From positions 23,446,197 through 23,510,196 of the forward strand of contig NC_133230.1 of the NCBI RefSeq assembly GCF_040436345.1: 64,000 nt of DNA, read 5' to 3'. This DNA comes from Pagrus major (lineage: Eukaryota > Chordata > Actinopteri > Spariformes > Sparidae). The translations under genes were made by a program, and so were the position numbers. Below the pieces are notes generated by a model. That model did no database searches. It saw only the letters and a program-made list of their open reading frames with translations, and had not been told where the DNA came from. Positions 1,686-63,462 of this stretch are shown here, one piece after another. Numbering within the stretch: the stretch's first letter is position 1; every line of letters starts with the position of its first letter.

Positions 1686-7381
<5,696 letters not shown>

Positions 7382-28627: not shown

Positions 28628-29630
28628 ACCGCACTTTACCCTACTCTGACCCTGTGACTGAAAATAAGCTGATCAGCTGATCTGACCTGGCAACAAAATA
28701 ACGTAGCTAGAGAAATCTGCCAGGGAGGGGGCTGCTGAAGAACAAAACAATGACACTGCTCGGAAGGATTTAGACACAGTAACACTTTTTAAAGACTTTG
28801 TAACGCCGTCGCGCGGATTTTCCTCCCGTCGTAAAGTAAAGAAATAGTCCGCGGATATCCGAGCTTTGGACATCGGCTGGCTGTTGTTTTTGTTGATATG
28901 TTGTTACAGCTCAGTTGACAGACAGGAGGCTAGCTGCTTGTTAGGACGTGCTATGTACTATTAGGACCCGCTGGCTCGCTTATTGCAGTTGTTCTGTAGG
29001 AAAAGTTGAAACTGTCCGTCGAAGCCGAGCAGCTGTGAAGTGCGTTTTGCGGCTTTGTTGCCAAATTATCCACCGAGTTTGCCTGCGAGCTACTGAGAGG
29101 GTCGTTATTGCCAGCTAGCCTGTTGTTAGCATCAACATTTGCACATTCATCTTATTCAGGGAGAGTTCATTGTCTCGGTTGGTACAAGCTACCTGCATAT
29201 GCTATCCTGTGTTATTTTAGTGTTGCTCTCTGGCACTTGGATATATTTTATGTAACGCTGAGGCTACGTGCTAACTTTAATACATGAGCAAGCTAAGTGT
29301 TGGTGGCACAAAGATATCAGGTGTTCCTCGAGGAGACGGCTGTTTCTGCTTCATTGCCTCACTGTTTAGTTGCACTAGATGATATTATTAAAACCGTTTT
29401 TAAGTGTTTGAAATCCATACTGCCAGAGTTAACTTGATATATTTTATTGTATACAGTCAGTGGGATACTATGCAGCTGTTCTAAGTTGATGTAATTGTTG
29501 TTTTTGGTCATTTCAGCTGTCAGTATCACTGCATGTTGTGCATTTGTCATTAACTGCTATTGTCAATTGCTGGTGCTGTTGTCAAAGGTGATCCAATAAG
29601 CACTGCTCTGTATTTATCTTGTACGAAACG

Positions 29631-32600: not shown

Positions 32601-35600
32601 TTGTGGGTCAGTACCCTCCTGCTATTTAAAAAAAAATGTAATCATTGTTATCACTCCTTCTTTGTTGTGAAACCCCCTGCTGTATTGCTTTCATCACAGA
32701 TCTGGCTGCAAGAACAGCATGAACCACTTAGGAGAAGGGGCGTGCCATGAGGCGAAGCATCGCTGTCGTTATTCTGTCCAGTATGATAATCGCATTTACA
32801 CCTGTAAGGTAAGCACAGTCTCACTTAGATAGAACTGAGCTGTCTCTCTTAATCAGTGACTTTGTACTGACTCTTGTTCAATGGCTGATGTGTTAAGTTG
32901 AAGTCATTGTGTGGTGCATCACTGTAGGCCTGCTATGAAGGGGGAAAGGAAGTGATCGTTGTCCCTAAGACCTCAGCTTCCTCTGACTCTCCATGGTTGG
33001 GCCTTGCCAAATACGCCTGGTCTGGGTGAGTTGCAGCTGAATGAGCTGCAGTGTCATGCTTGATTTAGGCTTATGTTACCTTTACAGAGCCTAAGTTTAG
33101 CTCTGGTTTTCTAGCCTCTTACCTAAAATCTAAAATTTCTATCCACATTAGCCTACATGTTCCAAATAAATACCTCGGATACAAATTGGTTTACATTCAT
33201 ATTTTCACAGAGATTTGAGTTGTACATTAATGCGTCTACTGTATGTTCAGGTATGTTATTGAATGTCCCAACTGTGGAGTGATCTATCGGAGCCGTCAAT
33301 ACTGGTATGGGAACCAGGACCCTGTGGATACGGTTGTCCGCACTGAGATCCAGCATGTATGGCCAGGGGTAAGAGAAACAAGCTTTTTAATTCATTTATC
33401 CAATGTAGATTATATGTTTATAATTATCTGTAATCATACAGACGTATAATCATTGCTAGAGGTAACCATTTATCTACTTATGTTGATAACCTGTCTGCTT
33501 TTTGCAGTCTGATGGTTTTTTAAAGGACAATAGTAATGCAGCGCAGCGTCTTCTGGATGGAGTCAACCTAGTGGCCCAGTCTGTGTCAGAGCTCAGTGTC
33601 AAGCCTGCCAAGGCCGTCACCTCTTGGCTGACAGACCAGATCGCCCCGGCCTACTGGAAACCCAACTCCCTCATCTTGGTGAGTGACACACACAGCCCCA
33701 CCCTGTGCCACCCGCCACCAGCAGCCAAGTCAACACTTTCATGTCCAGAGGGATGTTTACTGGCTGGTGCTCTGCAGCTATTACACAATCTTATGTTTGC
33801 AGGTCACAAGATAAAACTTGAATACATACAGATTGCGTCCTCTTCCCTCTAGTACACTCTTGTACAATAACAGCTTCTCTTGTTATTGTTTTTTTTTCTC
33901 TTTCTCCTGTACTAGGTGTGCCATAAGTGTCACACAGTCTTCCAGGACAATGACACCAAACATCACTGCCGTGCCTGCGGGGAGGGCTTCTGCGATGGCT
34001 GCTCTTCCAAAGCTGCGCCCGTCCCTGAGAGAGGCTGGGGTCTTGCCCCTGTCAGAGTCTGTGACGTCTGCTACGAGCAGAGAGCCTCATACGCAGGTAC
34101 ACACACTCTCAATAATGTCAAATGCTCTTTTGTGTGTATTATGCAGCCATTTAACATTCGGCTGAGCTTTGGCTTTAGCAGATATCTTTGTCATCTTTAT
34201 GCAGAGATGCTTGAGGCTGAGCGCGAGGAGGAAGAAGGTGGAACCCTGGCCAGGAAGGTTGGAGAAGCAGTGACCAACACTATAGGCGTTGTGGTCACTG
34301 CTATTGACATCCCACTTGGTGAGTGTTGTCCAAAACAAAACCTAAAGAACATCGTTATGTAACAGGAATATATGACCCAGTAAATGTGAGGGAATGTATA
34401 CAGTGCCCTCTGGTGGCAGACGTGTAACGTTCTTATTTACGGTAAGGAAGAAAAGTAGTGAGGTCTTGTTTCTAGTTTGAACTCTCGAAGATGTCATTAA
34501 GGAGTTTGACCAGCGAAGGCTTCCTTATAAGGAATATGTAATGCCCTCATGGCCTAGTTATAGTAGAGACTGTACAATTAGCAAAAGCTCACAGGTCTTT
34601 GCTCACTCGCTGCAAATGTACACATCAAGAAAACAACTTACCTATCAAGTGACAAATAAGTTGGAAAAATTGTCAAAATCCAAACAGTCTGAATCCAATC
34701 AGTTGCCCAGTTGAGTGACTCAGATATTTGATAGAAAGCAGATCTTCAACTACTGATTTTTCATTTGTCTGTAACTGTCTCGCTAACAAAAAATGTTTAT
34801 AGACTGAAAAATTAAAATCCTCCTACACACACTGGTTACAGAACCTCAGATTCCCTTTAACAACGTCTTCAGGTTGGCAGTGCTTCCATGTAGAGGGGCC
34901 TCTGCTACCTAATGTCAAACATAGACTAGTGCAAAAGTGCCATAGTTGACCAGTTATCCTGTTTACTCCTTTCATTTTTTAGGCTTATTGCTGTAATATT
35001 TGTTCAAGAGTTGGTGTTATAAATGTTTTCCCCAGTGTTTTTGAGAAGAAGATTTTTCATAACAGCCAATATGACACATTTCTGTCAAGAAAATCCAAAA
35101 TGTGTTTTAGATTGAGAAAACTGGCTCCGCTGCAAAGTGTTGGCAAGAATAAATGCTGCACTCACTCAAACACACACCAGAAATCACAGCCCTTATTTTC
35201 GAATGTGGTTGTAGTTTCATGCATGTCTTAATCATATTTATATAACCTCAAAGAATGTACTTAATCCAAAGCATAAGTAGTATGTTAATGCATGTTAGGC
35301 TGCTACATGAGTCTACTGTAGGCCTATATTTACTGGTAAAGGGCATAGATGAATTTTTGATAACGTGATATCCTGTTGAAAACCTCTCCGTCTCCATCAC
35401 CGCCCCAAAAATACCTCAGAGCAAGGTCCACTCCAGTCACAACAAAATACTTATTTCTAAATACCAAACCTTGTTTCCATGTTTCCATGGCTACCCGAAC
35501 CAAGTCAGCCAAGGACTTTATTTTACCTGAAGCAGCAGGGTGCACTCCAAACAGTAGAGAGGAAAAATAAACAAAGTAAAGCGATGGTAACTGACAATGG

Positions 35601-36855
35601 AAACTGTTTTGGTATCAACAGTCGAGTATTTCAAATAGTCAGTAAATGCAAATAGATTTAGGCACTGCAGCATTTAATCAGCAGGGATGGTAGGTATAAT
35701 GAATGGGGCTCACAGAGTGTAGGTATTGTAACAGGAGACTCCAGGAAATTGTTGCGCTCTGCCAAGTCCGGGACATAACCCCCCATAAAACCACATCGTG
35801 CCATTTTTATAACATGCTAATTGGTGAGATTCGGATGGGGCAGTAGCAGGATATCAGGTCATTGCAAACCTATTACTCTGTGCCCTTTGTCAGTCAGTAT
35901 AGTCTAGGAATACAGCATCATTTGGACAGAGCAAGGCTACCAGTTTTCCCTCTGGTTCCAGTTTTTATGTTAAGCTAACAGATATGAAAGCACTATCCAC
36001 CTTCTAAGCAACAAAGCGAACGTATTTTCTGAAATGTCAAACTGTTCCTTTAAATGTCTGCACTATGTTTACAGTGACTTAAAGATATAATATGTAACAT
36101 TTACAGATACAATGTCCAAAAACAACTAGACCTTTGTTACGCTTTTTTTTTGAGTGGTGTACTGACATTATTATAAACTTTTCCAAAAATGTTCAAACTC
36201 AGAAATTTGCTAATTAATTCAAGGTAAAATTGCATTTCATGTGGTCTCCTGGTGCTATAACTGTCAGGGAAACATCAGATAATATGTCGGAGAGCAAAGA
36301 AGGAAGGTGAAGGTGACCAAACGTATATATGAATACAGCATTAATACATTACCTCGTCTGTAGACATTTCTGCTTAAATCATGTCAGATGGTGTTGTTTA
36401 GGAGTTGGGGGTTGTTTAACAATAAAGACAACAACTCCCATGATTCCACAGTACTTAACAATGTCACCAAACTACATCTTTTGTTTTCATTTTTTTTTTA
36501 GCGGAAATGACATACTGTGCGTTAAAAGTGACCACCATGTGTGTGTTTAATGTAAAAGATGTAACTGTTAGCTTACATTATAACCAATATGTGCTTGTGT
36601 ATGTGTGTATTTATGTGTTTAGGTCTCGTGAAAGACGCAGCCCGTCCTGCCTACTGGGTGCCCGACCAGGACATCCTGTCGTGCCACAACTGCCAACGCG
36701 AGTTCACTGCCAAGCTGTCCAAGCACCACTGCCGCGCCTGTGGCCAAGGAGTGTGCGACGACTGTTCCCCTGAACGCAGGACGGTCCCATCGCGGGGCTG
36801 GGACCACCCTGTGCGTGTTTGCACCAGCTGCAACCAGAAACCTGGAGAACTTTAA
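29631..36855 (+). CDS. zfyve1: Zinc finger FYVE-type containing 1 (DFCP1)
   Basis: PI3P-binding protein of the ER, Golgi and omegasomes, used as a marker of autophagosome birth and also placed on lipid droplets. Exons: 29631-30140, 30246-30750, 32125-32339, 32500-32606, 32700-32808, 32928-33025, 33251-33368, 33508-33678, 33916-34096, 34205-34318, 36623-36855. All are GT-AG with consistent phase; they total about 786 aa (human 777). Order: Cys/His-rich N-terminal zinc module (ESYACGGSEE to CQKRTHSGGNKKKH), P-loop NTPase domain with GNTGEGKSHT (Walker A type) and DTEGLLG, a Cys-rich middle part (FTCSSLCLSCGSGC to YVIECPNCGVIYRSRQYW), then two FYVE fingers, each with KHHCRACG and RGW; the first is in exon 9, the second in the last exon. 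The start at 29631 (MSGHGSS) matches the human MSAQTS start; no in-frame ATG lies just upstream. The last intron (34319-36622) is long and repeat-bearing. Very confident. Confidence 0.96.
31611..31900. repeat. Truncated MITE-like repeat (zfyve1 intron)
   Basis: Begins near a TTAA (31605-31608) with AAGGAAAAGTTCACCGAAAAG, resembling the end of the inner MITE at 13891 and a very common fish family. The matching right end is not found, so the right limit is approximate. Confidence 0.4.
34319..36622 (+). other. zfyve1: Last intron of zfyve1
   Basis: 2.3-kb intron between the two FYVE-coding exons. It contains a diverged dispersed repeat around 36070-36300 (opening AAAGATATAATATGTAAC) and otherwise unrecognised AT-rich sequence. 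No alternative exon is evident. Confidence 0.6.
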
Positions 36856-39374: not shown

Positions 39375-39490
39375 TGCCGCAGATGTATTGGTCCACGAAT
39401 TCACCCCGAGCTGCGATTGGTCCGTTCCTGTAGGTTTCCCTCAGAACTGCAAGACGCCGATATTGCGTTACACTGTAGCAAAATGGCGGC
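39375..39490 (+). promoter_or_regulatory. dpf3: dpf3 core promoter with YY1-like start element
   Basis: Two inverted CCAAT boxes (ATTGG near 39389 and 39416) precede the start codon. The ATG itself sits in CAAAATGGCGGC (39479-39490), which fits the YY1 consensus and nearly fits the TISU translation-initiator found on mRNAs with very short 5' UTRs. Transcription would then start just upstream of the ATG. Words seen; role inferred. Confidence 0.5.
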
Positions 39491-42400
39491 TGTCATTCAG
39501 AATCCACTAAAAGCGTAAGTAATTTAGACATTTAGGAAATTTGTGAAGAATTACTTTGCTGCCAACTTGTGCGTTAAAACTGTCCGCTCGTGCATGTGAT
39601 TTCCAGCCGTGTGCATGTGACAGATTAAGCTGTCCCAAATTCATTTTGTGTACTTCTTGCATGCCAAAGTAGCCTCGTATACTTCTTTTATTCCACGAGA
39701 TTTTTTTCTAACATTTAGTCTTGAACGTGCTCGCGAAGGCTGCCTGACATTTCGACTGCACGGGAAGAGCTTTTCTTCCCCTCCACACGGTCACACATTC
39801 AACACGGAGAGAGTGTCGTCTTTCCTGGGCTGTGCATTTATTTGAAAACTGTCGACAACGTGCCTCAGCGGCCGCTCCGGATAATTAAAAGCCGATTTTC
39901 TTCGTGCTCGGTTGGGCACAGCGGCGGCTTTATCGTCTGACACGGCGAAAAGTCGCTCATAGTTGGTTGTGAATTGTCGACATGTCAACTTTGGCTCCTC
40001 CGAGCGCAGACGTGGTCAGGACCCGGTAAAGCAAAGGGAGGAGGCATTTTGTATTTGCATGCTCGCTGGCGAAATCGACAAAAAGTGACAGCAATTTGAG
40101 TCGGCCGCTGGAAACGGACTGTCACCCTGCGGCCAAATAGCCCGTGCAATGGTCGTTTTTATCGCTTAACTTGAAAGCAATGCTCCACCTTTTTCTCCCA
40201 TTTCTCCCTTTGTTCTTTCTGTATTGTTTCCCCCTGCTTAACACGTTACTGTAAGTTGGGCGCTATCAGCCTCCTGCCTCTTGTCATGTCTGCGTGTTAA
40301 AACTAGATAACAACATGGCATTTCTTTGACACGCACGCCGAGCTGGACGTGACAGGAGCGTCCAGCCTGTATCGATGTGTGTTTTCTTCTCACCATCATG
40401 GCTCGGTTGGGACCGTGGAGGTAGAGAGCAGGCGCTCCACTGTGCCTTTAAGTGGAGGAGTGCTGGAGATTAGCTTGGTCCAGGATCCTGGGCCCATCTG
40501 TCAGAGAGATGCTCCGACAGAGAGGAAGTGTTGGGCACAGGCAGGAGAACCATCTGCTCCTCCATATAGGTACCCTGGCACCTCCGTGGACCGTAAAGCG
40601 CAGGGAGTGGACCACACAGCACCTTGCACGTCACCCACACTGTTGCCATTGTTGTTGTGGCATTGTTACTACAGCTAGGGGAGGATGTAGAATGATGCTT
40701 ATGATACCTGCTGATTGTCCTCTTGAAACTATTATTTTTTTGTGTGCATGTGCTGGAGAATAGTTGCCTATAATAATTAATTTAACAGACTCGGGGGATG
40801 AATCGTGGGCAAAGACAGTAGGGATAGACCGATTATAGGGGCAGATATTCTGCATTTTTCTGATTATCTGTGTTATTTGTGTCTGATTGCAGGGGAAAAA
40901 ATATTTGAAAAATGTGCTACTTTGGCTCTGATGCCGCATCCTACCCCTGTCTTTAGTCACCATCTCTGCTGTCTTACTCAATGTCCTGCCCACAACACTA
41001 TCTGACTGGTTACTAGGGTTGCAACGGTATGAGATTTTCACAGATCGATAACCATCTCAGAAAATGTCATAGTGTTATGGTATGTGGTATGAACAGCGAT
41101 GGAAAAATGAAAACGGCGGGGGTGTTTTTGGTTCAACGAACACTTGAAATATATGCAGTTAAAATAAAACTGCTAATACAGAAGAATTCGATATCGGCGA
41201 TATAGGAAATGTACACAGTATGATAACGGTACATTTCTTTTTTGAAACCTTGAAACTGGTACATAGCTGCAACCCTATTGGTTACACATCACAAGCAATA
41301 GCCTATCAACACTGAATGATCTGAATCTGCAAAGTAGCTAGGGATGGGACAATAAAAGATTTTGCCCCGAGATAAAAAAATTCACAGTAAGTTGATTCGT
41401 TAATCATGAATATCCTCACATGAATGACTTGACGGAGTTGTCCAGCTAGCTGACGTATGGTCCTATATTTGCTTCCTGACTTATTTTGAGTTGCCTAAGC
41501 TTGTCACCATGGCTGAAGGCTTGGCTTGCACATCATATTCCGCACAAAAACAATATATCAGATGTGTGTAAATACTACAAACTAAAAAAATGACAGGCAG
41601 ATGCGGTTACCACCATTTATTCCTCCTCTATTTGTACAGGACCACATGATTTATGATTAGTTATTCAAGACTCTTTGATTGTTGATGAGGGTTCTCAGTC
41701 ATCCAGGTCATGGTAATTCTAAGTGCTGTATTGTAGGCAACTGGACTTGTTTCAGTTTCTTGAAGACGTTGCATCTCTCATCCAAGAAGCTTCTTCAGTT
41801 CTAACTAACTGGAGGGGGGTTGCAGGCTTTTAATCCCTGTGTGGGAGTGTCCTCACAGAGTCATTAAGGACACGTGTGAGCTCTGAGTTTCAGAATCGTT
41901 GGTGCCACTTGTGGGCCGTTGACCCAGCCGGCCTTCATGTGGGTTGCTAGGGCTAGGTGAAGCCCAGGTGTGAATGGTTGTTAAGCTGTCTGGGGAAAGA
42001 ACTCAGTGCTGCATTTTAGGTGGGTGATAAGTAATGTCGTAGGCCACCTCCTCTGTTCACAGACGGTCGTCCCAGTTTGACATAGACAGATTTTTTAACT
42101 CCTCTTTCAAACCATCTGTCTTCTCTGGACAAGATGTTCACATTGTTGTCCCCAAAGGAATGATTTTTCTCCTTCACATGTAAGTGGACAGCAGAGTCTT
42201 GACCTGAGGAGTTGGCCCTCCTGTGTTGTGCCATTCGTTTATGGAGAGGTTGTTTTGTCTCCCTAATGTGCAAATCTGTGCCGTCCTGGCTGCATTGAAC
42301 AGCATAAACTACATTACTCTGGGTTTTGTTAGGTTTGAAGTGAACCGGGATATGATGTTTATTGAAGGTTCCTCCTGAGTTTCTCAGATGAGACTCTTTT

Positions 42401-45400: not shown

Positions 45401-47659
45401 GGGCCACTGATGGAGAGCTTGTCGTTACGCAGACAGCCAGCACCCGCCACAAGACTTTCACCACTTATTTGCTCTCTCTCGCTCTCTCTCACTCTCCCCC
45501 CTCCATGTTTCGCTCCAGACTGATCAGCATCCTCTCTTGGTTTCTTCACCTCGTGTAACTGCTCGGGAGCATTTACAGCTGGCGTGCTTTTAGTAAATTG
45601 ATATGTCACACTGCGTCGCAATCACATTACGAACGGCAGTGAAGCCAACAGGTTCGTTTGACGGGGATTGACTGTACGCTCGGCGCACATATGGTATAGA
45701 TCCGAGAGGAGCAATTTAGACATATCACTACACAGCTGTGTGTCGTTATTTTTTACGAGCCAAGTATTTATCTTTTAAAAAGAAATCCTTGATCAAGCTA
45801 CTGGTGAACATGTCAAACCTCTGATCTTTATGGCCAATCTGTTTTGAGTACGTCTCTGTGTGATTCCTCTTGTAAAAATTCCTGCATCTTAAAGGGTGAG
45901 AAAGTGCCAGTGCATGCCAGAAATTGGTGTTTTCTTTGCTTTGTATGCACTGAAAAACACTGTAGGACATCTTTACAAGAGAGATGGTAGTAGTGATGTG
46001 AGTATTACCTGCAATAAAGCTGCTATCTTGTAACACCAGTAAGGAAAAACAAAGTCCCACAGTTATTAGACATGATCTGCTTGTTAGCTTTCGACCTTCC
46101 TTTCTCACCGTCATGCCTTTTTGAACCCCCTGTCTTGTTGTTTTTATTCCTCTCTTTGTCTTTCTCACACCTCTCCACCCCTGCACTCGCTCTGTACCTG
46201 TGACTGTTTACTCTTCTCAGTATCACACACCGACACGAAGCCTCCCTTTCCCAGAAGCCTCACACACACACACACATACACACACAGACACACACACTGT
46301 GGCTTTGTCTGAACCGCAGAGCTGTGGGCTTTGTGCGGGACAGCATTCCTAACACGGCTGTTCATTTGCTGGACGTCGTCTCAACGAGGGAGTAAAGACG
46401 AAAGGGAAGGAGGGCAGAGCAGGATCTGGAAGACAAATTGGGCTCCTCCACCTCCTCCACCTTCTAGTTTAAGATTCCAGGCTCGACTCGCAGCCCCTCA
46501 GCTCATTAGTTTCACTTCAAAATGGCCGTCTTCCTAATGTTGTAATTGAGAACACGTGGAGGAACTTCATTACGCTGATGTGGAGATGTTCATACGAGAA
46601 GAGTCAGGAGCTATTATTTGCCCTGTTCAACCTGTGATATAACAGCAGACTGTGGAAATCACATACAAACTACTTTGCCATGATTTCAGAGTTGCAGCAT
46701 TTACCCCCATCTTTGATATAGTCAAATTAGAACCTGCCCTTGTGCTAGGCACTCTGCTGAGATTAATTAAGTAGGCTAATTACCATACCAGGCGTGTGGC
46801 AGCGATTGAGGGCTTGAATGTGAAGTATCCTCCCCCATTTCACTCTGAATATTAACAGTGAAACCCTGAGGGACTGCCAAAATCTCAGTGGTGCTAAGAA
46901 AAGTGGAACTAAAGTGTTAGTCTGAGCTGCTCGCCGACTTCACATCAGACCCCAGCCTCCATGTCGACGGGATAAACTAAACTCGGTCAGCGCCACCGTA
47001 GCTCACAGCCCATCTAGAATCAGATAAGACAAAGAGCCCACAGAGGTAATAATACGTTTAACTTGAGGAGTGGGAGCAGCAGCGTCGTGTCGTAACTGGG
47101 TTGCATTGTGTTTTTTCTCTCTGCAAATTCTTCCCGATGGCAAGCTGGAAGAGGAGAGAGAAGCTCAGCTGTCAGTTTGAGTCGTGCATTGAACAACGCT
47201 GATAAGAAGTTTGAACAGACGTTAACGGCATTATGTGGGTTGAGGAGAGTTTCTGAGGGACTTGCATACAAATCTCGTATCTGCTTCAGCTTACTGATTT
47301 AATGATCTATAGCCGGCAGAGCAACAGGCCATTATGGAGGCATTCGTACATGATAAAAAGGCTCATCTCCATATCAGAGATTCTGCAAATATGTTCACAT
47401 CACGGTTATTCTCCCAAAGCAGCTGCCCCATGAGCGGCTCAGCTGTGTAAACCATGTCACCCAGTGTCACTGACCTGACGTTACCCCCCTGCAGGTTGGG
47501 CGACCAGTTCTATAAGGAGGCCATTGAGCAGTGCCGCAGCTACAATGCCCGCCTGTGTGCTGAACGCAGCGTCCGCCTGCCATTCCTGGACTCACAAACC
47601 GGCGTGGCCCAGAACAACTGCTACATCTGGATGGAACGACACCACCGCAGCCCCGGTGG

Positions 47660-50700: not shown

Positions 50701-51706
50701 TGGAACTATTATCTAAAGTGAGCAATAGACGGATGTTTTCATGCACTTTGAAGTATGAACACTGAGCTGGTATTTTGATGATTCATCACGTGCTGCCTTG
50801 TTTTTGTCTTTATGCAGAAGGTGGCCTCATGTCCAAGGACACCTTGCCCACACAGAGCACCACGCTGGAGGCGCTGCTACGAGGAGAGGGGCTAGACAAG
50901 AGGAACAACTCTAAGAATGACGAGGAAAGCCTGCTGGAGATCCAGGTGGGTTCAGTCAGAAAGGTCTGAAACACCCACTGTATGCATTTATTTGACACAA
51001 TACTATAAAAAAAAATACAGTATCGATGTTTGATACTACATCAAAGAAATGACACAACATTGAAGGTAGAAAATTTTATATTTTTGATAATGGTAAATAT
51101 AATATGGCTTGTGTCCTTGTGTGTTAAGCACAACCGTATCAAAGTTAATGGTGCAATATGTAAGAATTGGCATCCTAAACTTAAAAAATAGGGGGGCAGA
51201 ATATCACCAGAGTAACAAGCTTACTGCTTCGAACTGTAACTGCTCTTAGTTAGTTAGCTCAGTTAGCCGTGCAGCTAGCAGTGCAGATTGGGAGCTCAGA
51301 GCATCGGGGCAGTTTTAGCATTTAGACTGCTAGCATAGGAGCTTTAGACTGGGCGGGCCAGGGCTAGCTGGTTAGCATGCTAACTTCACTAGATACCTCT
51401 GCAACACAATTTATAGACAGCATATTGTCATAAAGTGAACTGTTATTTCTTTACATTCTGTTGATAATTTTGCTAAAAGTCTTACATATCACACCTTTAA
51501 TTTACTTCTGACTATTATCAGATGAGTGAGAGAGAGGAGGCAGGCCTATGTGGGCCTGACAGTATGTGTGTCAACTCGCTGTTGCAGAGAAGAGAGAGCG
51601 AGAAAGTGCAGCTGGTATGGGTGTATCGATACTACAGAAAAAAATCGTAATGAAACAGTTTCAGATATTCAGAATCGATATGTATTGGTATTGCAATACC
51701 TTTGAC

Positions 51707-51767
<61 letters not shown>

Positions 51768-52803
51768 TTGTTGCTGTGGTTTTAGAGAGTCAGCCAAACG
51801 TTTAAAATGTAAATGTTCAGCGATATCACTCAAACGACTGAGGGCCCTGGCACTGAGAGTGAAGTGTTGCGCCCCAACAGGGCAACTTGCCAAGTTTTTC
51901 CAGCTGACCTGCAGGGCTCATTAGCTGGCTGCTGTCTCACTGAGAGGCATTTTGGACAAGTAACTTTGAATTCCCATTAACTGATTATTATATATGATAG
52001 TGATTCTCACATTAAAGCGGAAAACAAATATGAAACTTAATTAGCTCTATTGTCAAAAGCAGTTACGCCTTCTGCCAAATATACATGTGTACACATGTAT
52101 ATTTACAAGAAGAGAGGGCTTAGAGCATAACAGCTTATTTCTCCTCTCTTCATGCTCCTGGTACTAAACAAATGACTACAATAAAGTAACTGTCTCCATC
52201 CTGTAAGCAGCTGTCTGAGCTGTAAACATTTCATTATTAAACAGATGTTTACACCAATAGAGAACATGCACTACAACTGTCAAAAACACCCAGATATTGT
52301 GTTGAGAACTGAGAAATAGATTTTCTTTCCGCTCTGTTGCTGCCGCGCAGTGTGTTTTCAACAAACTGCTACATTAATCAGAGATGAGGAATGAACTGTT
52401 TTTTCCTCCCTGTCTCTTTGTGTCTCAGAGGGTTCTGGAGGCAGACGCAGCAGAAGACGCTTTCAACGATGATGACGACTACGAGGTGGACACTCCCAAG
52501 AGGAGACATCGGGGCAAAGGAAGAGTAAGCGACAACATAGACTCCAGCTGTCATGTTTCAAATTTAAGTTGCACAGTAGTCGAGGCAAAGAATTTTAGTT
52601 TCTTTTGACAATCTAGTTTCTATAAAACATAGTGTAAACATTAGGGATGTTATGATTTTGATTCTAAATTGAACATCGATAGAAATGTGCTTTCAATTGT
52701 AATCACCAAATTAAAACATAGTATCTTTTTATCATGTGCTGAGTGAGCACTTGGTGTCCAAGCTTTCTCTAATCCACAGATTGTCTCTTTGGCCAGCTGA
52801 CCC

Positions 52804-52882
<79 letters not shown>

Positions 52883-54937
52883 CACCCCCATCACCACTTT
52901 AACCCTTCAAATCCCCCAACAGGGGCCTCCCATCAGGGATACGCGGGTCAGAGCTTCAGCTGAGCCCAGAGCTCAGTGCTCCTTCCAGGGAAAAGTTGGG
53001 TTTCCACTTGGGGTCTAATGCTAGGTCTATTTTTAAGTGTCATATCAAAATATTTTAAATTTAAATTTTTTTATTTTTTGTGTTATATATATATATATAG
53101 TGTTTCATAAACACTTAAAAGTTCCTCGTAGTCACTTTATTCAACAGTGTATTTTACATATTAAACACTATGGATTCAAGTACAAAACATATATTGTGGT
53201 ATTCTGCCCGGGCAGGTTGTATAAAAATAAAAAATATTTTGTTTATTTTTATTACTCAAACCGAGCAATTGATTATGCGAATAGTTGTCAATTAAATGGC
53301 TGATAGCTAATGGATTAATTAATTAAATGATCTTTGAGCATTTTGACTTAATAAGTCTAAACAAATGAGGCCCAGAGTCCGACTTGTCCTCGTCTTACTT
53401 ATTAGCTTTGTACTGTATATTGTATCAACAAGTAATTCCAAAATAGCGTCCGCACTTCAGTTGACTCGCTGTAACTCAATCACCAACACAGTTTGTTGAG
53501 ATGGAAGATGAAACAAGGTAAACAAGTGTCACTGTAGCCTCCAGTATTCCTGTACATGCAAGTTGCATGTGGAAAGTGCAGGTAGGAGGGTATTGGATTT
53601 TACTCTTTCTGTTGTGACTCGTGTTGAAAGACACATGCTCATGCTGTTCTCTCTTCGCTCTGCGTCTTCTCTGTTTCAGACAGATACAAACAAAAGCAGA
53701 ACTCAAAATCTTCGACCTCAGGTACCTCGGTTTGTTGACTTTTTTCAAACAGTAGTTTTTAGGGTATTTGTTTTGATAGATTGTCGAGTGGTTGTTTCGC
53801 AAGTGCAGTGATTATTGATTTAGGCCCCTATATCATCTTACTTTTCTCAAGCTGAAAAGTGTCCTGGGTGCTGGGAGACATGGTTATTATGTTGTCTGTG
53901 TTTGTGTTTTATTTGACTGACTATTGTAATCAGACTGGAAAGTGCTTCCTTTTGTCCCCTTTTGGACTGAGACTGGAATTGCTACCTCCATGAAATGCCA
54001 TGAGTCTGTTTATTTTTCAATCATTGACTCAAAAAACTCTCTGTAGATATTTTTAGTTCATTGCTTTATAATGTAGAGACATGACCACCTCACCAGACAC
54101 CCATCCAGGTGTTCGACTGATTTTTGTAGGCCTCGTTATCGAAGTCTTTTTTCTGAACAAATGGTCAGAAAAGGAAACAAACATCCTGCATTTGGAAATG
54201 TTGTGTTGCCAAAAATAATTTTTATGCAAGCAGTTATAGTAGTAGGACTGAACATCTGCTGTCTGTTGCAGTCTGTGCGAAGCGCTACAGGAACCGTACG
54301 GGACTAAGCTACCACTACACTCATTCCCACCTGGCAGAGGAGGACAGAGCCGGAGAGAGAAGCACTGTGGCGTCCAGATCCCCCTCTGCACAACCGACTG
54401 ACAGACACAAACGTAAGAAGTCAAAGTGTTACACCTCTAACAAATCATAACCTTTGGTTTCATCAAACAAACCATCACTTACCATAACATACCATGTGTA
54501 TATGTCCCACTTGAATGTCCTGCTGACAGTTTGGATTTTAAGTCTGATTTAGTCTTTGATTAGATTTAGCTTTTGTAAAATCATTCTTTTTTTGTTTATT
54601 CGTATTTTTTTGAGAATTAGCTTTTAATAGACCAAATGTCTTTTTTTTTCTCAAACAAAATCCTCAATTTGAATAAAAATGATTCATCGGATTAAATGGA
54701 GCGTCGAGCGAATTATCTTTTCTAATGAAATGACTTCAGTAATTTACTAGAAGATGAAAATGAAAATGTTTTTGAAAGGCATAAATGGACTGAAGCAGAA
54801 TAATCAGCTTTTTTTTTATAATTCTGGAAATGATTACAACGATCTTTCATCATTAATTTTGACTTTTGGAAATGTTTGTATCACATGAGTTGACACAATC
54901 ATATATATATATACATATATATAATATAAATATATAA

Positions 54938-55020
<83 letters not shown>

Positions 55021-55858
55021 ATATAAATATATATATATATACACAAATAGTATTATACTAATAATATAGTGATAATATAGATATGATAATATAGAGTATA
55101 GCCTAATGTGAAACAGAATGAATAGACATGCAAAAAAAAAAAGCATTTGGTTATTCATTATGAACTGAGCTTCATACTATTTGATACATGCTCATTGTAG
55201 CAAACTGCTCTTTTCAGGATAAGCACAAACCAGAAGAATACAGGACAAAAGCACATTACATTCAAACTACAGAGAGAATCCACAATAAACTAATTAATAT
55301 CTATACAAACAATGCTTCAATACAAGATTAAAGGTCAAATAAAGGAAATGATTTTATATACTTAAATTAATCATGTTTCATTTATATTGAGCAGACTAAG
55401 CTACAATAGATGCATTAAGTATTGTGCTTAAGTCTGACCTGTCCGACCTTTTCAAATGTCCTTGTAGGTCCAAAGGCTCCAGGTGGGACCAGCATTCCCA
55501 ACAACTACTGTAATAAATGCCAGGGCTCGAATAAGAAAACGGGTAAAGCGGGGCCTCCATATGCAGCCTGCCGATGCACAAGTGAGTCCATATACACCAA
55601 AGTGTAAAATACATTGCGGAAGAACAAGCGAGTGTCCATTACTGTGTGGACGCTCACTTGTTTACCCATCACCTGACTCTGATCTTCTCCCATCCAGCTG
55701 ACCGTGGGGAAGAGAAGGAAGACGGGACTTTTACTGGAGCAGAGGAGCTGTTCGGCACCACCTCGGAGAGCGACACCTCCACCTTCCACGGCTTTGAGGA
55801 CGACGAGCTGGAGGAGCCCGCCACAAACAGCAACGGAATATCCAACCGACACAGATAG
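39483..55858 (+). CDS. dpf3: DPF3-type BAF45c subunit, 'a' form without PHD fingers
   Basis: Subunit of the BAF (SWI/SNF) chromatin remodelling complex, linked to heart and muscle development. Exons seen: 39483-39514, 47495-47655, 48415-48522, 50818-50945, 52429-52524, 54272-54412, 55468-55581, 55698-55858. The first five join in frame to the N-terminal Requiem domain ([51 protein letters not shown]). The sixth gives [17 protein letters not shown], the second half of the C2H2 finger; its opening phase needs an exon of 3n+1 nt between 52525 and 54271 that I could not find. The seventh encodes a PHD1 remnant (IPNNYCNKC) with altered later ligands. The eighth ends with [19 protein letters not shown] and a stop, matching the mammalian DPF3a isoform. 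No exon for the remaining PHD1 or PHD2 occurs before rgs6. Human order RGS6-DPF3-ZFYVE1 supports the name. Visible length is about 313 aa plus the missing exon. Confidence 0.92.
41014..41277. mobile_element. hAT-type MITE with 8-bp target duplication
   Basis: 264-bp element with ends TAGGGTTGCAA and the near-inverse TGCAACCCTA. It is flanked by CTGGTTAC (41006-41013) and TTGGTTAC (41278-41285), an 8-bp duplication with one mismatch. Ends and duplication length fit the hAT superfamily. No coding capacity. Confidence 0.75.
41341..42629. mobile_element. Second hAT-like repeat, split by a Penelope-like fragment
   Basis: Left end AGGGATGGGACAATA and right end ATCGTCCTATGCCT are imperfect inverses. 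The two halves (about 41341-41685 and 42440-42629) are separated by sequence of a different kind. No transposase frame; non-autonomous and old. Confidence 0.5.
41690..42440 (-). mobile_element. Penelope-like retroelement remnant (GIY-YIG part)
   Basis: The minus-strand frame 42435-42016 encodes about 139 aa of a GIY-YIG-type endonuclease domain as carried C-terminally by Penelope-like elements: VVYAVQC, then [19 protein letters not shown] and RWFERGVK, ending [11 protein letters not shown]. Downstream on the same strand comes the typical non-coding 3' part of such fish elements (41690-42000, includes CTTCTTGGATGAGA). The reverse transcriptase part is absent, so this is a 5'-truncated, broken copy inserted into the repeat at 41341-42629. 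Confidence 0.7.
43963..44008. repeat. CTC-rich trinucleotide tract
   Basis: Imperfect CTC repeat on the plus strand (GAG on the minus) within dpf3 intron 1. Confidence 0.9.
46261..46299. repeat. (CA)n microsatellite
   Basis: Interrupted CA repeat in dpf3 intron 1. Confidence 0.9.
47664..47727 (+). repeat. dpf3: (CA)n directly after a dpf3 splice donor
   Basis: About 30 CA units with one TA interruption, beginning 8 bases inside intron 2 (donor GTGGGC at 47656). CA-rich sequence near a 5' splice site can bind hnRNP L and change splicing, so its length could affect use of exon 2. Confidence 0.95.
47820..48000 (+). repeat. Partial copy of the repeat at 40819-41003
   Basis: TACTTTGGCTTTGATGCAGC and following bases align with the stretch at about 40918-41000 (CTACTTTGGCTCTGATGCCG). 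It lies in dpf3 intron 2. Diverged and without clear ends. Confidence 0.5.
49761..49785 (+). repeat. G-run of 25
   Basis: 25 consecutive G, preceded by GGGA repeats from about 49744. Able to form G-quadruplexes in DNA or in the dpf3 pre-mRNA (intron 3). The exact length may be affected by sequencing error. Confidence 0.9.
51149..51500. mobile_element. MITE-like repeat in dpf3 intron 4
   Basis: Left end GGTGCAATATGTAAGAATT and right end AGTCTTACATATCACACC, next to TTTAA, are imperfect inverses about 350 bp apart. No coding capacity. The TTAA on the left is replaced by GTTAAT, so the target duplication is only partly visible. Confidence 0.55.
51710..51766. repeat. (GT)n microsatellite
   Basis: About 28 GT units in dpf3 intron 4. 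Confidence 0.95.
52804..52880. repeat. (CT)n(CA)n compound microsatellite
   Basis: About 10 CT units followed by about 28 CA units in the dpf3 intron after the KRRHRGKGR exon, the intron where one coding exon is missing from my reconstruction. Confidence 0.95.
54900..55039. repeat. (AT)n tract
   Basis: About 140 bp of almost pure AT dinucleotides with small interruptions in a dpf3 intron. Strongly self-complementary, so copy number in an assembly may be unreliable. Confidence 0.95.
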
Positions 55859-58800
55859 AGAGAACCTTTTAGATTTGAAGAGACAATTTTTTTTTATATG
55901 GATTAACCTCTGGCAAAAATCTGCTGCTTCTTTTTCAATGTTTTTTTTTTTTTTTTTTTTTGTTTGCAGAAAGCACAAAGTGATCATTTCAGGACAGAAA
56001 TGCAAGTGGTATTTTATCTACTGAACATTGTTGAATAATTTATGAACACCTTTTTATATATAAATATATATATTAACTTTTAAGGCAATGAGCAACTGTC
56101 AGTGTTTCTTGACAAGTGAACTTGGTCTCCATGCAAAACAGAAGATGTTTTTGGAGTGTTTTTTTTCCCCCTCACTGGAGCAGAAGGAGCATAAACGTTC
56201 TGAACAAAAAAAAAACACTGGAGACATTTGAACAACTGAAACATTTAAAGGCATGAATGATACAGTCCGTTGGGGAGATGATTGAATGTCATTGCAGACC
56301 AATACTTGAGCTACTGGACGTTTTTTGAATCAGTAGTGGCTGTGACGATGAAGGTCTCTTCTTCTGCTCTAACTCTGGATTAAACTTGTGTGAAAATGAA
56401 GGAACCGATGGAAGGACTGCTACAGGCTACTGGAAATGTTTGGAGATGAAGAAACCTATAGATATAATCTTTAGAAAAATAGGGGACTAAACAAATGAAA
56501 GGTAAGAAACAGATTTGTTGTTTTTTGTTGTTTTGTAGAAAGATTAGAAAGCAGATGAAGCAATTCTGCAAGGGATTGACCGTTTAGACTTCCATCACAT
56601 TCTGTTTTATTCATGTTTTGAAACGGCATCCCAACATTTTTGGAGTCAGGGTTGTATACTTACTGGAATCTTTCACTCGCCCTCTTTTTAAAGCCACACA
56701 AGCTGCAATAATCGAACATAATGCTAGTTCTTAGCCATGTTAGCTGCTCTAGGGATGGCAATGTCTCAGTCAGTCCCCATTTTCCTGAATCCTGATAACT
56801 TTCGAGAGCCACTGATGTTCCCTCTTGCACTCTCAGTAGGTCACCATTTCAATTTGTCCAGTATTGATTTATGACCAACTAGCTGCAAAACCAATGACAT
56901 TCCCATCATCCTCAGCTGTACTGTGCTTTGTGTTTAGTGCTAACCAGCAAATGTTAGCATGCTAACATGCTAAGCTAAGATGGTGAACTATTTCCTGCTG
57001 AACTTCAGAATGCCTGCATGCTGAAATTGGCATTTAGCTCAAAGCAGCTCTGTCACGTCGCTTGTAGAGCCTCACAGGGCTGCTGCCACGGCTGGGGACT
57101 CTTAATCAAACATATAATGTGTGAGTCTAACCCATGTTGTCTGTCTTAAACACTGTAGGAGCAATCGGCACATTGGCATGTGGCCCAGGAGCGGGGGTGA
57201 CCAGTGAAGAAAAGGATTTTACTCTAAGAAACTAATGAGCCTTCATGTCGCTCCCGATTTTGGGCCTAAAATAACTGAAATGGATGAACAGACATCCAAC
57301 ACGTCTACAGGCCATGTGGCTTAATTGAAGCAACTGCTCCCTCGACGATATGTATCGATCCCCTCTGAACATTTGAAATGTGAGTAGATCCAGCTTGGTT
57401 TCGTCCCCTTTTTTTCTGCACTGTGCTGGAGCTCCACTGGACTATGGGAACACTAAAGGCCAGGCCTTTTTTTTGGACTGTTTGTGCCCCAGCGGGAGCA
57501 TTTGGGGCCCCGGCGGCCCAGCCTGCCCACTCCTGCTCTGTGACTGTGTGTCTGCTGCGTGATCCGATGTGACACTAAGACGTCATTATCCTCATCACTG
57601 TGCCAGCCTGCCGCTCTGCACTGGAAACCAGCTCTGACAGCCATGACCCTCCAACCTGATTGGACCAGTGACCCCCTGACCCCCAGCCATAGAGATGGTG
57701 CTCAAATCCACCACTATTACATGCAGACCTCTGGACTACTGTATGAATACCCTGACATGGTTTATCTCTCTGCTTCTGTCTCTTCTCTGTCTCTTTTTGC
57801 TCTTTATTTCCTGGGCCTCTCTGACTCAAATGCGTCGCAGTAATGTTTTTTTTCTTTGTTGTATAATATTTCTATGTTTTGATCTCTTCAGAGTTTAATA
57901 AGTATGACTTCTTGGGTTTGTTCAGACTGTATTGATACCTCTGTCCTGATCAGGTGCACAATAGCCACAACTACTCAGGCATCTTTTCATTTCCTCTGCT
58001 GTTGATTGTTCAGCCACGCAGCCCTGATTCATGTGATTGTATTCAGTCGGCACGGAGGGACAATAACACCACACAAGGATCCCATTCTAATCGGCTCCCA
58101 GGAGGGAAGTCGGGACGCTGTAGGAAAACATCGCAATAACAACCTTCAACTTCTGTCCGCTGATTTTTTGCAAAACCTTCTCCTCTTTCTGTTCAAATCA
58201 TCTCAGACGCATTGGGAAACAATATTGTTGCTAGAGAGACACAAATCTTCCCAGATCCACATACTTAGCAAGAAGTGAAATCTGTATCTGTGACATTTCC
58301 GTTGAGTGCTTTAGAGGGCCTAATTGCTTTATGACATTTAGAAGGTGCTTGAAGTCTTGTATCAAAAAGCCTTTTAGGGTACATAGGTTGCACACTGTGT
58401 AAAATGTCTGTGTCCTTCCATGTAATTATTCAGTATCGCTGCAAACTAATAATAGCCACTCCATTTTGAAGCATTAATCCTATGTGTCTGGTATGACTTG
58501 GGTATGTGCTTGTGCATCCACACCATATGTCTTCACTTCCCTCAGGGACCCTCCACACAGCAGTTTATCTCCTCCGGACAAAGAATGGACGCGAGACTTG
58601 TCAATTATCTCATCTTCTCTTGTGTGGTGTTTCCACAGTAGAAAAAAAAAATGGGTCATTGTGTCTTTTATCTTCCAAAGTCATGCCAGTAAGTGAAAGC
58701 ATGCGTCATCAATCATAAACCTGCTTATTAATGTTACCTGCCGTATATACAAACAGGCCTGGCGTTGGCGCAGTTCTGAACAAAAAGGAGAAGCTCCTGA

Positions 58801-59074
58801 AATGCAAAAGTCAGTGATGTCCGCTTCGACTTACGTGTCACCAATCATTGAATAGCCTGTATACCTCGTCAAAGACACAGCAATAGGCCCCTGGTACTCT
58901 CTTGTCATGCCTGCCGGGGGGGTGGAGAGGGACGATCGGGGTGGGAATGGAGCCAAGAGGAGATGAAATGGACACGACTGGGCGTTTGTTTCATCCTCAG
59001 CTGTAAATACGAGTCGAGATGGAAAGAATGAAGAAGTCTTTGTTTGTTAAACTATTTTTATTGTTCTGAAAAAA

Positions 59075-59093
59075 AATAAAGAAAAAAAATAAA
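59075..59093 (+). terminator. dpf3: Candidate dpf3 poly(A) signals
   Basis: Two AATAAA hexamers 13 bases apart, 3.2 kb after the dpf3 stop. They are plausible for a long 3' UTR but nearer non-canonical signals cannot be excluded. Confidence 0.35.
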
Positions 59094-60326
59094 GAATGGA
59101 TGGTGATGCTTGATGCTATTATTTCCTCTCTTTTTCTTTTTTCTTCTCTGAGAAAGACCAGGGGTCATTTTTGACAAGGCAGCTGATAAGCAGAAGAATC
59201 CGAGACTGGATCGATAGGTTGGAGTGACCCTCAGACTCTGTGAGCAGACGGAGAGGGGGAAAAACAGCACTTTGGTTTGTGAGAGCAGTGGAAACTCTGG
59301 ACTAGAAATAAGAACAAGATAACAAAAAAAGGCTCAGACACAGGGAGCTCTTATTGATCGGTAGGGGCTGCTTGAGCCATCACAAGTAAGTTGGCAGAAC
59401 TCAAAGTATGAGCAATAGAGTCTGCCTACAGAGAGGGCGATTTATGATTAGCAGTGTATGGGCTCTGAGTGTTAGCTGCAGGTATAAAGTAGGACGTCTT
59501 AAAGGTGCAAAATCGGATCTCCTAAAGAATGCCGCATCCTAGATTTCCAAGGCACAAGGCTTTCTGTTTTAAATGTGTCCAAACCCAAACTGAGGTATTT
59601 TTTTCAGACTTGTCAAAGCTTTAAGAGCCACAGGCGGAATTATACAACCGCTTCCGTGCCAGCTCTAGCCCCACCTTGAGGTGTTCTCTGAAACGTATCA
59701 AGACTATTGGATGAAATGCCATGAAACTGGGTGTAGTCCCTCTCTAGATTTATTATAATAACTCTGGTGAACCCTTAACTTTTCAGTTAGCGCCATCATC
59801 AGGTCAAATTTGTTCAACATTTTGAACCGCTCATGGCCAAATACCTGCAAAAATAAAGACAGTCTGGCATGTGTTGTCATGCTAATATACTAAACTAAGA
59901 AGGCCAAACTGCCACTGATCCAAAAATCAATCAGAGTATAGAGTATAAGTAGATCAGAAATTCTGAGTGTGTGGAGCGCCTTGGTAGCCAGGGCTCGACA
60001 TCGCAACAGTTTGGTTCCAGCCTGACCTTTGTTGCATATCATACCCCTCTCGCTTTCCTGTTGCCTGTCTGCCTCTTTACTATTATTCTCCAGTACAGCA
60101 AAAAATGTCAAGCTTTGAAGCCATAAAAAATAGCCAGAATAAAACCAAAAAATGTTTTATGATTGACATTCACACATACCATAATATCCCTGTAGCCTTG
60201 TGTTGTTATCCACCAGATAAAGGCAAAGCCAGTTTGCATCAGGACCTGACTCAAGGCATCAGATCTCAGCTGACACAGACAAAAGACTTCTTTTGATTCG
60301 TGACACAAAACAGCAAGAAAAGAGCG

Positions 60327-60353
60327 ACACACACACACACACACACACACACA
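60327..60353. repeat. (CA)n microsatellite
   Basis: About 13 CA units between dpf3 and rgs6. Confidence 0.95.
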
Positions 60354-62545
60354 GCAGACAGGTCCAGAGTGTTTATTATTTGGTACTCATGGATAGATAG
60401 CAGGTGCTTGAGTGTTTTGGAGTGCCAGTAGTTATCTTGCTGATTGAGAAACTAAAAGCACAAAATGCCCTGAATATGTTACATGCATAGTAATGTGCCC
60501 ATATCATAATAAAGTGTGCTTTTGGATAAATGAAATGTAGCCGATTTACAAGGACAATGCACCCTGTACATAGTGTCATTGTGTTTGTGCTGAGAATAAC
60601 ATTTGGTACATCGACTCGAGTTAAGCATCTCTCTCTACCTTATAATCAAGAGGTTATTGGTTTATGATAATAATGATGGTTATTAATATGACCTGTACAG
60701 TGCATTGCAACGACTCTAATAATAGAAAATGATAGATGATTGACTCGTTCAGCAGTGTGGTCTGTAAATGTAGCAGTCAGTGGCCTCATGGGGGAGCTGT
60801 GAGGCTAAAATCTCCTCAGTCCGGGCACTTTCCGTCTGCAGAAGAAGTATGAAGCCACAGTGGAGCACAGAGGCCTTTCATGTTCAGTGTGCGGCACCCA
60901 TGATGGGTCAAATAGTGTCCCCAGTTGCATTTCAGGGCTTTGATGTCCGTTCACTGAGGAGTGTCGCTCCACTTCCAGGGCTTTTCCACCAACTGTTTGC
61001 TGTCTTTGGAGAGTCAAGCCACTCCATTTATGGTCCAATAACATGCACCATTTTTCCTCATAGTCATCAAAACACATGACGATTATTAGATGGAGAGTCA
61101 CGGCATACACTTTGCCAAACAAAAGTGAATAGCTTTCATTGTTTTCAGAAAACGAACGATGACATATTCATGCAGTAAAAAAGCAACAAAACATAAATGA
61201 TCCCATATTGGGCTGCAGGCCTTGAAATGAGACTAGTTTTGACATCATGATATCCTTCGATATGAAGTGAACACAGCTTGATACAGTCTTGTAACACTCT
61301 GTTGTCTGGTCCTGTGGTTTAACCACCACTAGATGGACCCATGGCACTGGAAATTTTTAAAAACTACACTACAGTAGGAGCCCATAAAGCACATGGAGGC
61401 TATATCATATATGACTGTGCACACTAGAGCTGTGACTAAAGTAAATCCTCAAATTACTGTGATTCACACAACCATGTGGGCTATTGTTTGTGTCGAAGCT
61501 TCTCAGTTACTCACACACACTTTTAGGCATTGAATCATTTGAATGTACAGCATGATCATTTTGGACCTTGAAGTCTGGGAAGTTGTGAAAGCAGGGAGTC
61601 AATTGGAGCCATCCTCGCCACACGTCACATTACAAAGCACTGTTGTCGAAACACACACTAATCCTCAACAAAGACATTTGGGTGAGACATGCGACGACGT
61701 TGCAGTGTGAATGCTACATTAAGCCCTTATGCCAGATTTTGGAATGTAATGAAGCATGAGAAACCATACCATCAAAAATCGGTGAACTTATGGGACAACA
61801 AAACAACTTTGTATTCTTGAATACCGCCAAAATTACGTTCACTATTTAACCGTCATGTCGTGTACTTTATAAGGAACAGATAGAAATTTCAAGGATATAA
61901 AAGAGGTTGGATATATTTCTAAAAAAGGAAAAAAAAAATGGTCTCACAATTTATTTATTGCTGGCTGCCTGCAAAAAAACTGTAGATTTGTGTCTGTTGA
62001 TGTGCTTCTTTGACCATTCAGCAGTTGTGTCTGAGTCAGGACTGGCCCCGGCTGTTTCAGGACAACTAAACCACTAGTTAATTCACTGCAAATATTGTGG
62101 CAAATGTAAATGTTGTTTATTTTTACATTTTTTATCAAAGAATGTTGTTGCAATACCAGATATGTGCTTTTAATACACAATAAACCTTTTATATAAAACA
62201 AAATCAAAACAATATAAACTGATCAGCTTAGTCAACAACGTGCCTCGCCACCGGTTTGCCGACTAAGTGATGAAAAGAGGGCAGCCCTAGTCTGAATGTG
62301 CTTATACTGTATGCTGCATGCCATGTGTTGTGTTGGCTGAGGTTCCCCTTGTCAGCATCGTCTGTTCGGGGCGTTCACCCCCCGTACGCCCGGTGCTGCA
62401 CCACCAGTATGGCAGCAGCAGCAGTCCTCGGAGCGGCGTCTGAGAGCCTCCACAGCAGCTCCACTGTCTGTGCCCCCGCCCCGGCCCCTGTGTGGCGGTC
62501 ACCCCCCCAACAGGGTCTGGCTGTGCCCCTGCAGCACAGGCTGTG

Positions 62546-63462
62546 TCAGGATGACTGCATCAGGCCTGTCAGGCGCTTGCCCGTCAATGACTTGCCCTGA
62601 AAGGTCAATGAAAAAACATTACTAAACAGAGATGCTGACAGTCAGAGTACTTTAGGTAGCACTTTATATTAAAGCCCTTGTAATAAGCAATAGTTAATAG
62701 TTAATAAGGCCCTTATAAGTCCTTATTAGATGCTTATTAACATAAAAAAATGTATGTGTTAATAATAGCCTCATAAACATGTTAATTGTTAGATTATAAG
62801 ACATTCAAAATCACTATAAGAAACTTTTTACCAGTTTTAAGACACATGAACTTTAATAAAAACCTTATTAGCATAGCATAGCAGCCCGGGTTCAATTCCA
62901 GCTTGGAGCCATTGCTGCCTGTCTTGCATTCAACAAAATGCCAAGAAGTAGCAGTTTTGAAACACCAGCAGTGGCCCCTAGCTCATTTGAGTTTGAGACC
63001 CCTGCTTTAAGATGTCTATAAACCATTAACAAGTTTCCTTTAAGTGCTTATAACTGTCTTTTAATATAAAATCAATGTGTTTATGATGCTTTTATTAACA
63101 CATAAAGCTTATTAAAACCAATAAGCATCTTAACTTATAAGAGCCTTATTGCATTTTAATCAACACTTATTACAAGGACCTAAAGCGTTACTCTACTTTA
63201 CAAATCACACAACACAAGGTGCTATTTTTAAAATCTACAATGCTTGGTTGGACTAGGTGTCATCTTTTTCACAAATACACATCCTATTACATGTACAAAG
63301 AGCCATAACAGAGTGTAATATGGTTATAATTGCAAAAGCCACTGATAGTGAGCCAGCCAGTGTGGTTTGTGATATGATCAGCCCCAGCTCCAAATGACTT
63401 ACCACACTGCGGGTGAACTTCTCCAAGGAGGTGCGGCGGCCCTGCTCAGTGTCTGCTGGCTG
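62546..63462 (-). CDS. rgs6: Regulator of G-protein signalling 6, C-terminal exons (partial)
   Basis: R7-family RGS protein, a GTPase activator for Galpha-i/o that works with Gbeta5, for example in cardiac vagal signalling. Only the C-terminal tail after the RGS domain lies in the window; the rest is beyond the right edge. The penultimate exon 63462-63403 reads QPADTEQGRRTSLEKFTRSV; the final coding part 62596-62546 reads GKSLTGKRLTGLMQSS and a stop. Human RGS6 ends EQGRRTSLEKFTRSV then GKSLAGKRLTGLMQSS, so the match is nearly exact. The donor is GTAAGT and the last acceptor TTTCAG on the minus strand. The first exon has a CAGCAG acceptor, so it may begin with or without one Gln. RGS6 adjoins DPF3 tail-to-tail in human too. 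RGS7 is excluded by this tail. Confidence 0.9.
62655..63196. mobile_element. Inverted-repeat element in rgs6 last intron
   Basis: The left arm (about 62655-62745, with CCTTGTAATAAG) and right arm (about 63100-63196, with CTTATTACAAGG) are long imperfect inverses. The middle (about 62875-63008) is different and includes GGGTTCAATTCCAGC, a word like the B box of tRNA-derived SINEs. Probably a foldback/MITE-type element with a SINE fragment inserted. No coding capacity. Confidence 0.55.

Follow-up and report, generated by a model that had tools for sequence, protein, structure and literature searches.

A fish dpf3 locus likely keeps solely the DPF3a ending and lacks recognisable PHD exons before rgs6

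The dpf3 locus described here lies in a stretch of fish DNA of 64,000 nt, which was analysed as a whole and is called the window in the following, and it likely keeps solely the DPF3a ending. We consider it probable, taking the parts of this statement jointly, that the locus is the orthologue of vertebrate dpf3, that it has lost the three DPF3b-only exons between the DPF3a last exon and rgs6, and that it is fixed as DPF3a. A gene that is spliced into reader and reader-less forms in other vertebrates would hence be fixed here in the reader-less form. DPF3a-only loci of this kind are already published for other fish; the present one is a further example and not a surprise.

Gene model of dpf3

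Reconstructed sequences served as references for human DPF3, its DPF3a tail, DPF2 exon 6 and the insert peptide. The PHD part of the reconstructed human DPF3 agrees with PDB chains. At 357 residues, with SPT at positions 348-350, the reconstructed DPF3a fits the length published in PMC11678306 and the sites S348 and T350 named in PMC4824069. With reconstructed human DPF3b as query, tblastn finds exons 2-5, 7 and 8 at E <1e-3, while exon 1 is matched weakly (E 3.2). The features of the locus are as follows.

39483-39514, plus strand: dpf3 exon 1, coding part; tblastn weak alone (E 3.2), donor GTAAGT and phase fit exon 2
47495-47655, plus strand: dpf3 exon 2, first part of the 2/3 (DPF1-3_N) domain; tblastn E 1.8e-29, splice sites, Pfam PF14051
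48415-48522, plus strand: dpf3 exon 3, second part of the 2/3 domain; tblastn E 7.2e-11, splice sites
50818-50945, plus strand: dpf3 exon 4; tblastn E 6.8e-7, splice sites
52429-52524, plus strand: dpf3 exon 5; tblastn E 9.7e-5, splice sites
52525-53679, plus strand: intron in which exon 6 (first C2H2 cysteine, ...DKPYVCD) is expected; not found by tblastn, pattern or open-stretch scan
53680-53721, plus strand: dpf3 optional exon of 42 bases, a 14-residue insert between the C2H2 cysteines; splice sites and reading
54272-54412, plus strand: dpf3 exon 7, second part of the C2H2 finger; tblastn E 6.7e-10, splice sites
55468-55581, plus strand: dpf3 exon 8, first half of PHD1 in diverged form; tblastn E 1.4e-5, AG...GT
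55698-55858, plus strand: dpf3 exon 9a, last exon of DPF3a type, contains the FHGF motif, TAG stop ending at 55858; tblastn E 1.8e-12
55859-62545, no strand: interval of 6,687 bases between the stops of dpf3 and rgs6; PHD exon not found
62546-62596, minus strand: rgs6 last coding exon (GKSLTGKRLTGLMQSS, then stop); reading and match to RGS6 chain 2es0

All nine placed dpf3 exons lie on the plus strand and keep open frames and splice sites. Exon 1 starts at an ATG, the last exon ends at a stop codon and all other borders are AG/GT, with exon phases that agree throughout except for one break between exons 5 and 7. The window contains no N. The readable parts of the protein amount to 175 and 137 residues, to which the contribution of the missing exon is to be added. 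The product matches DPF2 at E 6.4e-57 and carries the N-terminal 2/3 domain (PF14051, E 2.3e-37, score 127.5 at a cut-off of 27.6 bits), 67 of whose 75 residues are as in human in a pairwise alignment. In human DPF2 this domain is part of the chain in 6lth and 6ltj, which we take to be BAF complexes. Exon 7 keeps the second cysteine and both histidines of the Kruppel-type C2H2 finger, and 17 of 23 residues in this second part of the finger are as in human; the exon with the first cysteine was not found in the window. The optional exon, which comes between the C2H2 cysteines, seems to be retained and has good splice sites. Its 14 residues resemble the insert NSFKQKHTSKAPQR printed in PMC11678306; the tblastn match obtained with the insert peptide is weak alone (E 4.0).

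The original prediction had the dpf3 frame end at 55858 with a DPF3a-type tail and a convergent rgs6 gene follow with its stop at 62546. Exons 8 and 9a, their splice sites and the TAG codon confirm the former, and the minus-strand last exon of rgs6 can be read as predicted. Hereby, the sole PDB chain matched by the rgs6 end at E up to 10 is the RGS6 chain 2es0, and this match is weak (E 0.074, GKSLAGKRLTGLMQ). Orthology to vertebrate dpf3 is indicated by the DPF3a-specific last exon, in whose tail core 21 of 27 residues are as in human, and by the convergent neighbour, with the weak RGS6 match just given. In the human gene order, rgs6 and zfyve1 are presumably the neighbours of DPF3, and the neighbours found here, rgs6 and a FYVE/GTPase gene of zfyve1 type, fit a dpf3 locus.

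Search for PHD exons

In human DPF3, exon 9 is DPF3a-only and exons 10-12 are DPF3b-only, numbered in that order (PMC9363427). The interval 55859-62545 is therefore the expected site of the PHD exons. With tblastn, the part of the human DPF3b query that follows exon 8 gave nothing below E 0.8 in the window. A PHD profile built from human DPF2 and DPF3 and run over six frames reached a best score of 5.6 in the interval, compared to a median of 5.8 and a maximum of 11.2 in 60 shuffled copies, and its best match in the whole window has an E value of 0.16. Neither method gave a PHD match above chance in the interval or in any other part of the window downstream of exon 8, and a recognisable PHD relic was not found in the interval. 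Likewise, the tandem PHD (D4) domain of the d4 family was not found in the window by tblastn, profile or Pfam.

The sensitivity of the PHD search was assessed with planted PHD pieces. Hereby, 81 residues were cut into arbitrary pieces, not at true exon borders, and three pieces were inserted together, recovery of any one of them being counted as found. Recovery above the shuffled maximum was complete (20 of 20 trials) at each of 80, 60, 50 and 45% identity to human and fell to 17 of 20 at 40% and 11 of 20 at 30%; these figures apply to the PHD search. The original prediction, according to which dpf3 has no PHD exon before rgs6 and for which a tblastn of DPF3b against the window was proposed as a check, holds on both the tblastn and the profile results.

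Two candidate stretches were discarded. The sequence at 60878-60928 (SCSVCGTHDGSNSVPSC), considered as a PHD2 relic, matches at E 9.6 over the window, and the best profile score of the whole interval lies below the shuffled median. The sequence at 29790-29912 matches the exon 8 region (E 0.023) and was first read as piggyBac-like; it lies in the B-box stretch of the zfyve1-type gene.

The half-PHD coded by exon 8 is itself altered. From NNYC on, the identity to human is 10 of 27 residues with gaps confined to one end and 14 of 27 if gaps may fall anywhere, compared to 26 of 32 between human DPF2 and DPF3 in this segment. The four cysteines are located at segment positions 4, 7, 24 and 26, compared to 4, 7, 26 and 29 in human, the second pair being C-x-C instead of C-x2-C. 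A diverged half-PHD with four cysteines, as in the published DPF3a-only fish, is hence present at this locus. Pfam gives a weak PHD match for the human half-PHD plus tail (E 0.0086, below the curated cut-off) and no PHD match at E up to 1 for the corresponding part of the window. With phmmer, exon 8 weakly matches the solved DPF3 PHD chain 5i3l (E 0.041), which suggests at the level of sequence that the half-PHD is not wholly unlike PHD1. Divergence of exon 8 is to be expected where the partner PHD exons are gone; had the assembly merely missed these, one would expect exon 8 to encode the first half of a working PHD1.

Missing exon 6 and the reading frame

With tblastn, no equivalent of human exon 6 (...DKPYVCD) could be located anywhere in the window. 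A degenerate pattern of 21 bases, allowing up to 3 mismatches, had 0 matches in the window, and none of the 135 open AG...GT/GC stretches of 22-250 bases with the right phase in the intron region contains DKPYVCD. The candidate filter, which any stretch with KP or PY would pass, was passed by 27 of these 135. Two of the candidates were rejected: 53852-53903 ends in C-V but lies downstream of the optional insert exon, and 53631-53721 is merely a backward extension of the latter. A direct join of exons 5 and 7 puts the sequence out of frame, with a stop at codon 187; if the insert exon is included between them, the stop falls at codon 201. Splicing in the order 1-2-3-7-8-9a is in frame, but would leave out exons 4 and 5 and is thought unlikely.

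Since the upstream exon 6 is missing, the locus as assembled cannot make an intact 'a' form. The original prediction that the locus makes only the 'a' form is thus borne out in part: the DPF3a ending alone is kept, as in the fish of PMC11678306, but the intact DPF3a frame that the prediction implied breaks without exon 6. As the later dpf3 exons are open and correctly spliced, exon 6 was either lost by assembly, or recently lost, or has changed beyond recognition. Its absence is a warning about assembly or decay.

The DPF3a tail

HRP2 reads H3K36 methylation. The tail coded at 55698-55858 keeps STFHGF and acidic residues after it, and a 12-letter stretch of the tail core is unchanged compared to the reconstructed human sequence. 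By its sequence it therefore carries the FxGF motif, which is the consensus of proteins binding LEDGF-type IBDs (PMC6877644). According to PMC11678306, the motif by which mouse DPF3a binds HRP2 is shared by all vertebrate DPF3a, and we infer that the FHGF of the present tail corresponds to this motif. The HRP2 route would thus be the part of known DPF3a biology which this dpf3 can still serve.

Release of HEY repressors is a function of DPF3a in mammals. HEY1 is not bound by DPF3a that lacks the half-PHD, changing S348 strikingly lowers HEY binding and phosphorylated S348 strengthens it (PMC4824069). In the fish protein, the half-PHD is altered and the SPT site, which holds the CK2/HEY serine (S348 in mammals), is absent from the end of the tail. 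Because both are published requirements, the HEY-releasing mode is less likely, and the HEY route appears doubtful for this dpf3. DPF3a also binds SNIP1, in cells via residues 254-357 and in vitro via either half (PMC9363427).

Comparison with other d4 genes

Loss of the PHD-pair exons, a retained DPF3a coding structure and a strongly diverged half-PHD are reported for dpf3 of O. melastigma, H. transpacificus, P. hypophthalmus and G. affinis (Kuvaeva et al. 2024, PMC11678306; 121 listed species according to its methods). The present locus resembles them in that no D4 exons were found in the window, the DPF3a ending is kept and the half-PHD is diverged. Table 3 of that paper gives dpf1, dpf2, dpf2l and one dpf3, marked DPF3a-only, for Oryzias melastigma, the sole species of this type among its main-text tables. 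The O. melastigma dpf3 proteins of 362 and 376 residues have the C2H2 finger, the longer one with the insert, whereas exon 6 was not found in our window.

With mammalian DPF3a (NP_036206, 357 residues) the fish locus shares the type of last exon, the 2/3 domain and the tail core with STFHGF. In mammals, however, DPF3a arises by last-exon choice from a gene with DPF3b as a further product, and the mammalian protein keeps C-x2-C / C-x2-C in its half-PHD and S348 in its tail, neither of which is present in the fish dpf3. Drosophila toothrin (tth) also belongs to the d4 family and is likewise fixed in a state that lacks the PHD pair. It differs in being a two-exon gene, thought by its describers to have originated as a retrocopy, in the complete absence of the Kruppel-type finger, and in that a paralogue with the PHD pair (dd4) is found in the same genome.

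Proposed explanations of the likely DPF3a-only state

In the reading that we favour, the equivalents of human exons 10-12, i.e. the second half of PHD1 and PHD2, would have been lost. The former alternative last exon would have become the sole one, which would fix dpf3 in its DPF3a form, and the half-PHD of exon 8, now outside any working finger, would then have diverged. The protein would still join the BAF remodeller via its 2/3 domain while reading no histone tail, and its FxGF tail would probably bind an IBD-containing partner of HRP2/LEDGF type which reads H3K36 methylation, so that targeting would come from this partner. Histone reading in the family would be left to dpf1, dpf2 and dpf2l and not to a second dpf3, which we assume to be absent. 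In its full extent, namely a sole dpf3 whose reader form was lost outright, a reader-less BAF adaptor targeted through FxGF by an HRP2/LEDGF-type protein, and a reduction that occurred at least twice in teleosts, with the catfish loss separate from that of smelt and percomorphs, this reading is held tentatively, with somewhat less than even confidence. Exon 6 speaks against outright loss insofar as it is missing, too; an assembly fault would explain its absence, and a similar fault might hide other exons.

The missing exon 6 thus leaves room for a technical explanation, which we consider unlikely, namely that the PHD exons are present in the genome and were lost from the assembly through a gap or a false join, a fate that exon 6 may have shared. 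In favour of this, the search for exon 6 failed between flanking exons that are open, in phase and correctly spliced, and simple repeats occur nearby, e.g. CA repeats at 52824-52885. However, the window is free of N, an assembly gap does not cause the loss of the working-PHD1 cysteine spacing seen in exon 8, and the identical state is published for four other fish (PMC11678306). It is very unlikely that the loss of both the PHD exons and exon 6 marks dpf3 as a decaying gene or pseudogene: the frameshift of the exon 5-7 join as assembled, with its stop at codon 187, would fit, but the nine placed exons keep open frames and splice sites, and the 12-letter stretch of the tail core is unchanged from the reconstructed human one.

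The number of losses depends on how the fish are related. According to the NCBI lineage, P. hypophthalmus (catfish) belongs with zebrafish to Otophysi, the smelt to Stomiati, and Oryzias and Gambusia to Percomorphaceae. Since zebrafish keeps the PHD exons, the four published species suggest that dpf3 lost them at least twice, or else that fish keep different ohnologues. Two dpf3 ohnologues could divide the forms, DPF3a being made here and DPF3b by the other copy, either in this genome or, via reciprocal loss, in different fish. We regard this as unlikely. It draws on the retention of the PHD exons in Danio and their absence from the catfish, which by NCBI lineage is nearer to Danio than the other three species are, a pattern that calls for at least two losses or for hidden ohnologues. 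It also draws on the 'four or more' d4 genes that PMC11678306 counts for bony fish. Zebrafish ohnologues, moreover, have fewer splice forms than singletons, which supports function sharing as a general process, but the opposite is reported for stickleback (PMC8146666). On the other hand, a single zebrafish dpf3 is listed with both forms, 3 of 4 proteins being predicted XP entries, and O. melastigma is listed with its single, DPF3a-only dpf3, the PHD-bearing relatives there being dpf1, dpf2 and dpf2l (PMC11678306). The teleost duplicate retaining the PHD form, which the original prediction had invoked, finds no counterpart in that table; sharing between duplicates is unproven, and this one published table speaks against it.

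Under the favoured reading of a dpf3 reduced to DPF3a, fish with such a gene are natural tests of DPF3a function alone. The retention of the 2/3 domain and the FxGF tail, set against the dropped half-PHD and CK2/HEY site, would point to the HRP2 and not the HEY route as the conserved function.

Neighbouring features

Upstream of dpf3, the window holds a gene of Notch-ligand type at 1840-6505 on the plus strand with MNNL and EGF-repeat matches in Pfam. The zfyve1-type gene, at 29592-34362 on the plus strand, has Pfam matches to B-box, GTPase-like and FYVE domains, and a second FYVE-like stretch near 36690-36691 (CRACGQ) is a chance tblastn row only. At 62640-63200, in what seems to be the last intron of rgs6, an A+T-rich sequence with repeated TTATTAA/CCTTATAAG units looks by eye like a small mobile element.
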